From: Polynucleobacter sp. Latsch14-2
GTDB lineage: Bacteria; Pseudomonadota; Gammaproteobacteria; Burkholderiales; Burkholderiaceae
DNA: 64,000 nt
Assembly: GCF_018881925.1 (NCBI RefSeq)
Contig: NZ_JACVPL010000012.1
Span: 1 to 64,000 of the forward strand
Reading direction: 5' to 3'
Shown here: positions 30,366-33,689 of the stretch, in pieces
Layout: each line of letters starts with the position of its first letter
Position numbering within the stretch: position 1 is the stretch's first letter
The notes under the pieces: model-generated
Told to the model about the DNA's origin: nothing
What the model saw: only the letters and a program-made list of their open reading frames with translations
Database searches by the model: none
Made by a program: the position numbers and the translations under genes

Positions 30366-30890
30366 ATGAACATGACTCACTACATGCAATTGCTGGCGAA
30401 TAATCAGCCCTGGAATCTGATTCTCTTTATGGCTATCCCGGTGGTTTTAGCCGAAACTTTAGCGATCACCGAGCTATACATCCTCTTTACTCGTAGATTC
30501 CATGGTTTGGTTTGGTCTATCAACCGCATCTCCGGCGCTCTTGTTGGTATATATTTTGTGGGCATTATTTATTATTTAGTCACAACGGCAGTTATTCCAA
30601 TTACCAAAGCAGGTGAATGGAGAACAGTGATTGATGTGATTGCGGTGGGCACCTATTTAATTGGCGGGTTACCACTCATCTGGATTGCACTGCAAGAGTT
30701 GGGTTTTGTGAATAAGGCGATGAATCGCGAGGGCAAGCTGAAGATTCATGCTATTTGTGTGGCACTCTTCTTAGTGTTTGGGCATATTGCCATGATTAGC
30801 GGCATGTTGGATCCCGGTCTCTTGGGGTATCAGCCAGCACACGCGATGGAAATGCCGGCTGCTGAAATGCCGATGACTCATCAGCATTAA
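30366..30890 (+). CDS. Polytopic membrane protein with a Met/His-rich tail (DUF6803-like)
   Basis: 174 residues with four to five membrane helices (about 17-42, 52-75, 88-112, 125-146) and a C-terminal tail rich in methionine and histidine (HAMEMPAAEMPMTHQH), a pattern that often binds copper or other soft metals. It resembles small proteobacterial membrane proteins of the DUF6803 type; this label is from memory and tentative. Ribosome binding site AAGGAA precedes the ATG. It converges on the Fur-controlled flavin operon, and metal handling could link the two. Confidence 0.5.
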   Translation: MNMTHYMQLLANNQPWNLILFMAIPVVLAETLAITELYILFTRRFHGLVWSINRISGALVGIYFVGIIYYLVTTAVIPITKAGEWRTVIDVIAVGTYLIGGLPLIWIALQELGFVNKAMNREGKLKIHAICVALFLVFGHIAMISGMLDPGLLGYQPAHAMEMPAAEMPMTHQH

Positions 30891-30903: not shown

Positions 30904-31326
30904 TTAGCTTGGGTGCAGTCTTCGCTGGGCTAGTACACCATGGAATGTAAATAGGCTAAAAAATAACAATCCAGTAAGCCAGTGGATCAAGATAATGTCA
31001 TCTCTTATTGATGCTGGGCCGTAATAAAGCAGGGCGCCAGAAATTGTGAGGATCGATAAAACTATTAATTGGCTAATTCCGCTGATGACCTTTCTGTTTG
31101 CTTTTAGGCCGACCTTTAAATGAAACGGCAGCACTGATCCTAGCGCTAGTGTGGCAATGATGGCTGTTATGCCATGAACAGAAAGCACTGAGTGTGTTCC
31201 AAGCCATTCTTTTTGTAACGAGAATTGACTCCCAAGTAAGTATGCGATGCCTGATGAGGAGCAGATCAACATCCCTGTAAGAACAAAGTATTTTTGCCAG
31301 CTTGCCATTTTGCCTAAACGACTCAT
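30904..31326 (-). CDS. Four-helix membrane protein with paired histidines (possible haem b protein)
   Basis: 140 residues with four membrane helices (about 12-33, 45-67, 82-102, 112-132). Histidines H51 and H69 bracket helix 2, H115 and H129 lie in helix 4, and H45 is at the start of helix 2; such spacing suits b-type haem ligation, as in cytochrome b561-like and ferric-reductase-like proteins. No family is certain. It is the last gene of the Fur-box operon; its ATG overlaps the ApbE stop by four bases. A role passing electrons across the membrane to a flavinylated protein is inferred. Confidence 0.55.
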   Translation of the reverse strand: MSRLGKMASWQKYFVLTGMLICSSSGIAYLLGSQFSLQKEWLGTHSVLSVHGITAIIATLALGSVLPFHLKVGLKANRKVISGISQLIVLSILTISGALLYYGPASIRDDIILIHWLTGLLFFSLFTFHGVLAQRRLHPS

Positions 31327-32141
31327 ACTTCAATCCTGATCGCTTGTGCCGAGAAATGGGAAAAGCAAGGATGATCCAATTTATTGGAGAGAGCTAAGAC
31401 TTTGGTGAGCGCATCTGCATGGATACATTTTTTAGCAACGATCGAAAAAGATTCTGAAAAATGATGCTGAGCTTGATTGATTGGATTCACGATATGACTA
31501 GCGGCATGACTTTCATGTTTAGAAAAATATAGACCGCTGGTTGCGATAGATCCGTTTTGTAGTTCGCCAATATTGATTAACTCTGAAGGTGAGGCGGGGT
31601 TGCGAATCCGAATAGACCTCGCTTGATTTCCAAAGACCCTTAGATCACCGCCGGCATTGACATAGCCCGACTCGATTCCATTTGCTAGTAGGCTGTCGAC
31701 TGCGATATCGACTGCGAATCCTTTGGCAATCCCACCTAAGTCTAGACAGAGCGGTTTATGTGAAAAAATGATATTTGAGTCTATAAAGACGAGATCTTCA
31801 ATTCCACCAAATTTAAACGGCAATAAATCTAGATTGTCGGGAAGTAAGCCAGTTGCCACTAGGCGATGCCCAATACCACAGTTAAAAAGACCATTAGATT
31901 GCGTGTATACCTCACGCGCAGTTCTGAGCACTTGAGCAGTCCATGGATGAATCTCAATGCTTTGTAGGTGCGATAGGGCATTGATTTTGGAGAGCTCACT
32001 TTGAGGGTCATGAAAACCCATGAGGGCTTGCACTTTCTCTATAGTGGCAAAGGCTTTATACATAGCATTTTCTTGCGAATGTTTCATTGAGTGAATTGAG
32101 ATTTCTACAAAGGTCCCAAGCAGTGGTTTGCAACGGGTCAT
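31323..32141 (-). CDS. apbE: ApbE-type FAD:protein FMN transferase
   Basis: 272 residues with family motifs: CKPLLGTFVEISI at the very N-terminus, a GIGHRLVATG segment, LDLGGIAKGFAVDIAVDSL (FAD and metal binding), GYVNAGGDLRVFG, and a C-terminal ADALTKVLAL (metal aspartate). ApbE attaches FMN through a phosphoester to a threonine of partner proteins; the partner is almost surely the adjacent FMN-binding protein, whose stop overlaps this ATG. Oddly, no signal peptide or lipobox precedes the catalytic domain, while most ApbE proteins act in the periplasm. Confidence 0.9.
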   Translation of the reverse strand: MTRCKPLLGTFVEISIHSMKHSQENAMYKAFATIEKVQALMGFHDPQSELSKINALSHLQSIEIHPWTAQVLRTAREVYTQSNGLFNCGIGHRLVATGLLPDNLDLLPFKFGGIEDLVFIDSNIIFSHKPLCLDLGGIAKGFAVDIAVDSLLANGIESGYVNAGGDLRVFGNQARSIRIRNPASPSELINIGELQNGSIATSGLYFSKHESHAASHIVNPINQAQHHFSESFSIVAKKCIHADALTKVLALSNKLDHPCFSHFSAQAIRIEV

Positions 32142-32680
32142 TTGCTTTGAGGCTTCTTCAGGGCTTGGTCATAGAAGGCCAGAACTCGTTTCACACCATC
32201 AGTGATGTGCTTGCAAGATAGGGTGGCACCGCCAATATTTTGAATATCTTGATTAAGCTTGACAGGGTCGCTAGCCGTCTTGCCTATAAATTGCTGTCGC
32301 CAATGTGCTTCGGCGACCTCGTATCCATAAGACTCGATGTACTCTAATATTTCGATGCTTTGTACGCTACCAGCGGGGGTAAGCCCCACCGCATAAGTAA
32401 TCATTTCATGTTTACCAACCACTTCATCCACTATGAGCCAACTACCATCTGACCCCTTCCAGACTCGGTCACCTTGAAATGGATGGCGAATGCTAGAGGC
32501 GCTACGCATCTTATCCTGCAGATCTGCCGTAATTAGAATGGGATTTTTAGTGAATGGTTTATTGGGAAAAATCAGCTTCTGCGCTTGTTCAATCGAAAGA
32601 TAAATCTTTGCTTGCGCAATGATGGGGGCTGAAGCCATAGCTAGACCTGCAACAACAAAGTGGTTGGGTTTCCAATTCAT
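32138..32680 (-). CDS. Periplasmic FMN-binding domain protein
   Basis: 180 residues: signal peptide (1 to about 24, cleavage after AQA) and an FMN-binding domain (about 85-172) with the flavinylation motif GGATLS, T153 being the likely attachment site, preceded by the strand GLTPAGSVQSIEILEYIESY typical of the family. FMN covalently bound by ApbE would give an extracytoplasmic one-electron carrier. Located between the outer-membrane protein and apbE genes in the Fur-box operon. Confidence 0.85.
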   Translation of the reverse strand: MNWKPNHFVVAGLAMASAPIIAQAKIYLSIEQAQKLIFPNKPFTKNPILITADLQDKMRSASSIRHPFQGDRVWKGSDGSWLIVDEVVGKHEMITYAVGLTPAGSVQSIEILEYIESYGYEVAEAHWRQQFIGKTASDPVKLNQDIQNIGGATLSCKHITDGVKRVLAFYDQALKKPQSK

Positions 32681-32698
32681 GATGATTGTGCGCTCACA

Positions 32699-33613
32699 CT
32701 AGTTCAGTGGAAATCCGACTTTGACAATAAATTCATTAACTGAATGGCTATCCCACACTCGGGCATTGGAGCATTCTGCTTCACCACCACCCATACAGTT
32801 ACCACCTTTTAATTGATAGCGCCAAGCTCCTGTAACCCACCAGTCTTTGGCGGCATAGTGCATATTGGGCCCAACGAAAGTAGCCCTTTGGACTTGGTTG
32901 CGTAAATTTAATTCTGAGTAATCATTGTGCAGACGCGCCTCAACACCGGCTGACCATTTCGGTGCAAATCGATAACTGGCTCCGACCAAGAAATCCATCA
33001 TGGATTCGGGCACATTGCCGTTCTCGATAAATTTGAGACGCTCATTGGCTAGCACTACATTGCCTGCCAATATCAGTCGATCATCAATGAAATTCGATTG
33101 CAGTAAGAGTCGCGCTTCAATTTCATCTTTGTTTCTCCCCCAAGTGGGTTCTAAATAAAGCCCTACTCCAACTGGTGATGTCACGGGGTTAGTGATACGG
33201 TAGATGGCCTCTAGTGACCCACCCTCTATGCCACTCTTCCTGTAAGCGGTGCTGGGATCATGGCTAGATGGTACGCCATAGCCTCCAGTGCAGGTAGGGC
33301 TATCTCCACAAGCTTCTGGATTTGTATAGTTTTGATTGGCATTGGTGTAATAGGAGTTGATGTAGCCGGCAACCTGCAAATCATTTGTGAGTCCGTACTC
33401 AAGCTCTGATCGCGCAGTCCATGCCTCATAAGTTCCAGAAGATTGCTGTTGATTGAGTTGAAGTCGTTGCTCAAATTCCCACTTTCCCTTAGGCTGAAGA
33501 TCAAGGGTGTAAATCCAGCCAAATGCTCCTTCACCTGCATGTGCAAAAGAGAAATGGAGTGCCGTCGCCAAGAGTATGGAAAACGCGATGAGTCTTTTGA
33601 TAGTTAATTTCAT
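32699..33613 (-). CDS. Outer-membrane beta-barrel protein, DUF6662-like (Fur-box operon)
   Basis: About 304 residues. A signal peptide (MKLTIKRLIAFSILLATALH, ending FAHA) is followed by alternating amphipathic strands such as WEFEQRLQLNQQ, ARSELEYGLTNDLQVAGYIN and a final aromatic-ended strand NEFIVKVGFPLN, as in transporters of the outer membrane. A Cys-containing loop (CGDSPTC) lies near residue 110. Start chosen at ATG 33613; the frame is open 18 codons further but without signal features. First gene of the operon and directly downstream of the Fur-like sites. Confidence 0.7.
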   Translation of the reverse strand: MKLTIKRLIAFSILLATALHFSFAHAGEGAFGWIYTLDLQPKGKWEFEQRLQLNQQQSSGTYEAWTARSELEYGLTNDLQVAGYINSYYTNANQNYTNPEACGDSPTCTGGYGVPSSHDPSTAYRKSGIEGGSLEAIYRITNPVTSPVGVGLYLEPTWGRNKDEIEARLLLQSNFIDDRLILAGNVVLANERLKFIENGNVPESMMDFLVGASYRFAPKWSAGVEARLHNDYSELNLRNQVQRATFVGPNMHYAAKDWWVTGAWRYQLKGGNCMGGGEAECSNARVWDSHSVNEFIVKVGFPLN

Positions 33614-33644
33614 GGGTTCCGTTTGGTTGGTGAATAAATCTAAA

Positions 33645-33689
33645 TGAGAATGATTCTTAATATACAATATTAAATAAGAATAATTCTCA
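33645..33689. promoter_or_regulatory. Two Fur-box-like sites before the flavin operon
   Basis: TGAGAAT-G-ATTCTTA (33645-33659) and TAAGAAT-A-ATTCTCA (33675-33689) each fit the Fur 7-1-7 consensus (TGATAAT-N-ATTATCA) at most positions and are near-perfect mirror images of one another. They lie 32-76 bp upstream of the operon start at 33613, where iron-loaded Fur would repress it. They could also affect the divergent gene at 33753. Confidence 0.75.

Follow-up and report, generated by a model that had tools for sequence, protein, structure and literature searches.

The closest described counterparts of the gene cassette reported here, which occupies positions 30,904 to 33,689 of a 64,000-nucleotide stretch of DNA from Polynucleobacter sp. 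Latsch14-2 (hereafter, the window), are clusters in which ApbE, the FAD:protein FMN transferase (FAD, flavin adenine dinucleotide; FMN, flavin mononucleotide), is encoded under the control of Fur. Passages in the pertinent papers describe Fur-repressed PepSY/DUF2271/DUF4198/ApbE clusters from Caulobacter (CC_3059-3063) and Shewanella as responding strongly to low iron and propose that they reduce iron for uptake (PMC8238504, PMC3751524), CC_3060-3062 of Caulobacter being treated as a Fur-controlled flavinylation cluster (PMC3751524). Haem b binding is reported, in parts of PMC11334425 and of the preprint PMC10979944, for one DUF4405 protein and for the ferrosome cytochrome FezC, which has been modelled as forming such haem sites as a homodimer (PMC11334425). 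For P19/FTR1 iron assimilation clusters, a passage in PMC8238504 proposes that an FMN-binding partner serves iron uptake.

Like the Caulobacter and Shewanella clusters, as these are portrayed in the passages cited, the cassette unites ApbE, a probably exported flavinylation substrate and a membrane electron-transfer partner. In contrast to them, its substrate is an FMN_bind and not a DUF2271 protein, a DUF4405-like protein of four helices is the membrane partner where they have PepSY, a DUF6662 barrel takes the place of DUF4198 and, in some of them, of a TonB receptor, and its ApbE lacks a signal peptide. With the DUF4405 cytochromes and FezC, following parts of PMC11334425, it shares a small membrane protein with conserved histidines, whose gene adjoins apbE in some cases, and, as regards FezC, the link to iron; unlike these, the protein comprises 140 residues with four predicted helices, not six, stays under the Pfam cut-off, and is partnered by FMN_bind and DUF6662 proteins and not, as the DUF4405 cytochromes are, by a flavinylated flavodoxin. 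The FMN protein resembles RnfG and NqrC in its FMN_bind domain and attachment motif and differs from them in occurring alone, without other subunits. In common with the P19/FTR1 clusters, FTR1 is encoded near two distant cassettes, whereas no FTR1 occurs in this genome.

A literature search of titles and abstract openings yielded no paper describing the gene set of the cassette, none with DUF6662 and none joining Polynucleobacter and ApbE, and, as far as these searches go, the gene set looks undescribed. The principle is not new, because Fur-controlled flavinylation clusters are known from Caulobacter; going by the passages cited, ApbE clusters repressed by Fur and DUF4405 cytochromes linked to flavinylation have both been published (PMC8238504, PMC3751524, PMC11334425). 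The undescribed route for ferric reduction or iron uptake that the initial annotation of this DNA had announced therefore appears novel in its gene set but is not so in its principle. We lean towards reading the cassette as a Fur-repressed extracytoplasmic electron-transfer chain that would reduce Fe(III), the Fe(II) then being taken up mainly via FeoB.

Gene arrangement and paired operator

The cassette consists of four genes and two palindromes:

32699..33613, minus strand: DUF6662 outer-membrane protein, 304 residues, predicted 12-strand barrel (Pfam 6.6e-12)
32138..32680, minus strand: FMN-binding protein, 180 residues, RnfG/NqrC-type domain, Sec-like signal peptide without twin arginine (FMN_bind 2.3e-9)
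32216..32233, minus strand: flavinylation motif GGATLS, expected FMN site Thr153 (G-A-T-x-S invariant in 8 aligned proteins, two of them identical, i.e., 7 distinct)
31323..32141, minus strand: ApbE, FAD:protein FMN transferase, 272 residues, without signal peptide (Pfam 1.1e-41)
30904..31326, minus strand: four-helix membrane protein, 140 residues, divergent DUF4405-like, presumed dihaem cytochrome b (His51, 69, 115, 129)
33675..33689, unstranded: Fur-like 7-1-7 palindrome, operator half 1, TAAGAATAATTCTCA (14/14 consensus match)
33645..33659, unstranded: Fur-like 7-1-7 palindrome, operator half 2, TGAGAATGATTCTTA (14/14 consensus match, 30 nucleotides from half 1)

From 33613 to 30904 on the minus strand, the order is DUF6662, FMN_bind, ApbE and 140-residue gene. 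The initial annotation had predicted an outer-membrane protein, an FMN protein with GGATLS, ApbE and a four-helix protein with paired histidines, and all four genes were confirmed; its description of them as overlapping applies to the last three (FMN/ApbE and ApbE/140-residue genes, 4 nucleotides each), while the DUF6662 stop is separated from the FMN start by 18 nucleotides. A TTG start at 33667 was rejected for the DUF6662 gene, as it would run across the boxes, and the ATG at 33613 agrees with relatives. According to the pattern and family searches on which all statements about the whole 2.34-Mb genome are based, the ApbE of the cassette is the sole one found.

The two mirror-image Fur-like boxes noted earlier ahead of the operon proved to be perfect palindromes and fit the 7-1-7 Fur pattern. 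With the degenerate site consensus T[AG]A[GT]AATNATT[AC]T[CT]A, composed after both window sites had been seen, 14/14 matches in the 64-kb window were confined to the two boxes before the DUF6662 gene, and simulated order-1 Markov windows (n = 200) held 0.005 sites on average and a pair in none. Since the consensus was set post hoc, conservation of the operator in relatives is the stronger test. The classical 19-bp Fur consensus with up to three mismatches found no match in the window, where solely the 7-1-7 form matches, and a sigma-70 scan gave no minus-strand promoter (four matches, all on the plus strand, vs. 5.7 expected).

Relatives were gathered by a scan with the FMN-protein alignment, and all counts per 80, 35 or 45 loci rest on the best 80 of at least 396 confirmed relatives (loci L092-L171), which comprise many metagenome-assembled genomes and include near-copies (L092/L093, L102-L104); the group of 35 Polynucleobacter-like loci, several of them from metagenome-assembled genomes, was chosen by eye from names and match order. 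Defined as two sites of at least 12/14 each whose starts are 26-32 nucleotides apart, the paired operator is located ahead of 34 of the 35 Polynucleobacter-like cassettes, the remaining one having a single site; the called start of L119 lay upstream, and a wider search window was used for this final count. Outside Polynucleobacter, a site of at least 12/14 was found for 18 of 45 cassettes. Where such a site exists, the rest of the locus scores lower in nearly every case, and near-classical TGATAATNATTATCA versions of the site occur at the cassettes of two Acinetobacter loci and of L046.

Genome-wide, there are three exact palindromes, i.e., the two cassette boxes and a site at C11:22996, for which the pattern search revealed a one-mismatch partner 28 nucleotides away. 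Other palindromes with two mismatches were not counted as operators, most of them lying inside open reading frames (ORFs). The pair at C11:22996 precedes a cupredoxin gene and the gene for a 255-residue presumed outer-membrane protein. The cupredoxin gene is present in 16 of 121 genomes of the genus, and the palindrome pair accompanies it at 16/16 loci, lying between feoB and the cupredoxin gene in ten; this genome has a single weaker site between feoB and an OprB-like porin gene. A passage in PMC6629928 lists feoB as a Fur target. The genome contains one Fur-family gene (C22:72570, E 1.9e-41). Because the pair is conserved in Polynucleobacter and common to feoB loci and there is one Fur-family gene, the paired palindrome is, as judged from sequence, very likely a Fur operator, and the Fur control proposed at the outset is supported to this extent.

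The second operon behind a like operator pair (L070:6880-7976, on contig G000:C11) encodes a cupredoxin of 110 residues and the 255-residue protein, which has no Pfam match, and may work alongside ferrous uptake. A HiPIP gene preceded by a lone palindrome (L071:4877-4891, G000:C22:12876) with one mismatch could be a further Fur target.

All four genes were detected together in 70 of the 80 loci (34/35 Polynucleobacter-like and 36/45 others), the four-gene loci outside Polynucleobacter including records named Ralstonia, Roseateles, Polaromonas, Dyella, Acinetobacter, Sphingobium and Verrucomicrobia; the set extends over beta-, gamma- and alphaproteobacterial as well as Verrucomicrobia records. 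Within the family, the 140-residue protein was detected in 26 of 200 genomes (19 of the 22 from the same genus and seven others), and ApbE is also missing from the three genus members without it. By tblastn, the order outer-membrane protein, FMN protein, ApbE, 140-residue protein is seen in 24 of the 25 loci L028-L052, L042 having broken frames; in L047 the FMN and ApbE genes alone were seen. Sets of 99 or 104 loci hold near-copies, as L028-L052 and L092-L171 share species, e.g., L030 and L137.

Several observations on individual loci may be added. The cassette of L042, from a 1.66-Mb Polynucleobacter genome (G094), is decaying, with broken ApbE, outer-membrane protein and FMN frames and a still open 140-residue gene, small ORF and feoB. 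An optional fifth gene for a small protein of 59-63 residues (MExQNLLVAAL...QC...ERALMMFE...LC.EANELL), without evident signal peptide or convincing Pfam match, is situated between the outer-membrane protein and FMN genes at L030:6817-7027 and 21 other loci, i.e., in 22 of the 99 loci having both genes, near-copies counted; the 18-nucleotide gap in the window has no such gene. The FMN protein of L093, a metagenome-assembled genome labelled Rhodobacteraceae, is identical to that of Ralstonia pickettii, and the contig is probably misbinned. In six of eight Verrucomicrobia loci (L105, L111, L112, L114, L117, L127) the cassette stands directly before rpsB and the palindrome is missing; some of these rpsB-linked cassettes are preceded by a cobalamin adenosyltransferase gene. 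Convergent with the operon of the window, a gene at 30366-30890 on the plus strand encodes a DUF6803 membrane protein (Pfam 5.5e-71) whose C-terminus is rich in Met and His. This gene, which adjoins the cassette in L030 and L032, lies 2 to 4 kb away in L039-L041 and was not detected in most other loci examined, is probably not a cassette member.

Association with ferrous iron uptake

Among the 121 genomes of the genus, with ApbE taken as proxy for the whole cassette, ApbE and FeoB are both present in 65, ApbE only in 25, FeoB only in four and neither in 27 (Fisher p 7e-9), although genes may have been missed in fragmented assemblies. In an rpoB tree covering 86 of the 121 (52, 19, 2 and 13 in the same order; 32 genomes without a marker match and three partial ones dropped), a model of dependent gain and loss beats an independent one (likelihood-ratio statistic 22.8, p 1.4e-4, by a chi-square approximation), and according to the fitted rates FeoB is rarely gained and readily lost where ApbE is absent. 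ApbE and FeoB evolve in a correlated fashion. Both their co-occurrence and the tree-based test support the tie with iron uptake that had been suspected for the cassette, specifically with uptake in the ferrous form. For Polynucleobacter asymbioticus, passages in PMC6629928 name ferrous uptake such as FeoAB as the only iron uptake known and report feoAB about fourfold up in samples presumably short of iron.

Genes for iron proteins are also encountered near some distant cassettes, i.e., FUR (L130, 96 bp), ferritins (L165, 115 bp; L161, 109 bp), FTR1 together with cupredoxin (L136), FTR1 (L107) and VIT1 (L122, 1.6 kb). The neighbor tally covered 90 of 112 proteins (within 1 kb, at least 95 residues) encoded at 42 of the 45 non-Polynucleobacter loci, after the near-copies L093, L103 and L104 had been dropped and 22 proteins, chiefly long, second or doubtful ORFs, had been taken out manually. 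The 25 neighbor families listed, of 87 in all, include no PepSY-, MsrQ-, NapH- or DsbD-like proteins, and a position beside Na+-Nqr or Rnf, which the initial annotation had named as speaking against its proposal, was not seen among them either; no other Nqr/Rnf subunits were recognized by eye among the ORFs of 25-40 kb. TonB-dependent uptake and FTR1 were considered as cassette partners and set aside, the former because receptors are nearly universal and, of the three in this genome, the two with a known position are encoded on another contig, the latter because it is rare in the genus, with no match in this genome nor in 117 of the 121 genus genomes. In genome G213, ApbE is split into two parts, and the search for TonB receptors gave no match.

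Predicted proteins and the site of flavin attachment

At the level of sequence, the ApbE match and the FMN_bind substrate with GGATLS support the flavinylation module proposed initially. The nearest solved structure of the FMN protein in the PDB is RnfG, and the protein scores far under the curated cut-offs for rnfG (23.7 vs. 102 bits) and nqrC (20.4 vs. 144 bits). In NqrC, FMN is attached to the threonine of the motif, and because of the likeness to NqrC and RnfG attachment would be expected at Thr153. ApbE aligns with the solved ApbE-type structure 1vrm over residues 8-247.

The signal-less ApbE raises the question of where the flavin gets attached. In all eight FMN proteins examined, the N-terminus looks, from its hydrophobicity, like a signal peptide and contains no twin arginines, whereas the ApbE of the cassette begins at the catalytic domain. 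In 80 of 99 ApbE frames (near-copies included), a stop codon is found no more than 25 codons from the PLLGT-type motif, in five more the start lies within 20, and the remaining 14 frames are longer, two of them (L095, L097) having a hydropathy that averages more than 1.3 across 12 residues; another five frames, in which the PLLGT motif is not present as written, were left out. Passages in PMC12052999 state that secreted targets are served by an exported ApbE and the soluble fumarate reductase of Klebsiella by a signal-less one. An exported substrate and its ApbE would be expected in the same compartment, which the sequences of the cassette do not indicate. A signal-less ApbE might modify the FMN protein in the cytoplasm, the unfolded FMN-bearing chain then crossing the membrane by Sec, or ApbE might reach the periplasm by an unknown road; that the cassette is in this way a stand-alone ferric reductase following a rule that exported flavinylated proteins are not known to obey is a tentative idea that we regard as unlikely.

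Neither Pfam nor NCBIfam gave a family match to the 140-residue protein at E<=0.1. Its AlphaFold model (mean predicted local distance difference test, pLDDT, 86.4) has four long helices, with H51 and H69 in the second and H115 and H129 in the fourth; these histidines belong to 15 invariant columns in an alignment of 16 of about 25 sequences (16/16 each). Foldseek gave nothing at E<=0.001; weaker structural matches are headed by designed dihaem bundles, and matches at Z 10-12 comprise hydrogenase cytochrome b, superoxide oxidase CybB, b6f and formate dehydrogenase cytochrome b. At E<=1, DUF4405 (PF14358) is matched by 8 of the 16 members (best 4.5e-4) and the prokaryotic cytochrome b561 family by three (best 3.8e-5). 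The protein of the window scores 10.6 bits for DUF4405, below the Pfam cut-off of 26.7, and with four helices per chain in the model it departs from the six-helix DUF4405 type. We presume from alignment and model that it is a dihaem cytochrome b; the earlier suggestion of a haem-b-like membrane protein with paired histidines agrees with the four invariant histidines, the cytochrome-like structural matches and the weak DUF4405 match.

The DUF6662 protein is modelled as a barrel of 12 strands (pLDDT 90) with structural matches to FapF, the COG4313 channel and autotransporter barrels (Z about 19-21), which point to a 12-strand channel, not to a function. Its His252 is invariant in 19 aligned sequences chosen by hand, and no flavinylation motif was seen in it by eye. 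A gene for the barrel was detected at 74 of the 80 loci, one of which has it on the opposite strand. In L134, L140, L149 and L160, as in L047, no DUF6662 was detected, and an ORF of 440-495 residues stands beside the FMN or membrane gene, with a porin O/P match in L149 and no match in L140. The barrel of the cassette may be exchangeable.

Proposed mechanism and competing explanations

Under the preferred reading, Fur would sit on the paired operator and keep the operon off when iron is plentiful; when iron is scarce, Fur would be lifted and the four proteins made. The four-helix protein would draw electrons from the quinol pool, or from another inner-membrane donor, and pass them via two b haems to the periplasmic face, where the FMN protein, with the FMN placed on Thr153 by ApbE, would accept them. 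Fe(III) or small ferric complexes would come in through the DUF6662 barrel and be turned to Fe(II) by the reduced FMN protein, and Fe(II) would be taken up mainly by FeoB.

A number of findings weigh against this. The initial annotation had held that the same genes in relatives without Fur boxes would contradict it, and this is in part the case, since 27 of the 45 cassettes outside Polynucleobacter, including all eight Verrucomicrobia loci, are without a palindrome of at least 12/14. FeoB is absent from 25 of 90 ApbE-bearing Polynucleobacter genomes, and a few genomes have a second or different ApbE, which bears on its use as a proxy. TonB-receptor barrels occur in 119 of the 121 genus genomes, three in this genome, so that ferric uptake by another road is possible. 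The Ralstonia cassette has a heavy-metal ATPase gene as its neighbor. The neighborhood survey suggested in the initial annotation gave iron genes near some distant loci, but most flanking genes have no evident iron role and the commonest families listed are housekeeping ones. With respect to haem, designed haem-free bundles rank beside the cytochromes, and helical bundles easily reach such Z values. Finally, a passage in PMC6629928 reports that Polynucleobacter asymbioticus is unable to use medium Fe(III), a point against an efficient reductase, or else a sign that particular complexes are needed.

One alternative is an extracytoplasmic electron chain for another metal or a small molecule, e.g., Cu(II) or quinone, in which Fur control would reflect the haem or redox cost. 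The heavy-metal P-type ATPase gene beside the Ralstonia cassette is found at a distance of 84 bp, FMN and ApbE alone were detected in two Cupriavidus loci, and the operator type is common to the cupredoxin gene; since a like operator serves feoB, since ferritin, FTR1, VIT1 and FUR genes lie near some cassettes of other taxa and since ApbE is associated with FeoB, we judge this explanation rather improbable. Fur repression alone would also fit an iron-sparing respiratory or repair branch, in which, during iron starvation, a flavin carrier takes the place of periplasmic carriers that contain iron and supplies a housekeeping reductase, and a passage in PMC8238504 proposes flavinylated carriers as helpful in iron-poor settings. 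That the inner-membrane partner itself apparently needs two haems, that most loci include the DUF6662 barrel, that a terminal enzyme is missing from the gene set, and that ApbE presence tracks FeoB make such a branch distinctly improbable.

The palindromes might also be bound by a regulator other than Fur, the iron link then being indirect. The choice of the consensus after inspection of the sites, the failure of the classical 19-bp consensus in the window and the many distant cassettes without palindromes would be in line with this; the agreement with the 7-1-7 pattern, the near-classical versions in the two Acinetobacter loci and L046, the pair beside feoB in ten loci, the one Fur-family gene in the genome and the FUR gene next to the L130 cassette argue against it, and we consider it very improbable.

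Polynucleobacter asymbioticus belongs to a freshwater genus and is described with ferrous uptake alone (PMC6629928), while iron in oxic water is mostly ferric. A Fur-controlled periplasmic reductase travelling with FeoB, as the preferred reading has it, would, if true, close the gap between the two. In that case, DUF6662 and the family of the 140-residue protein would also gain a testable function in several phyla.

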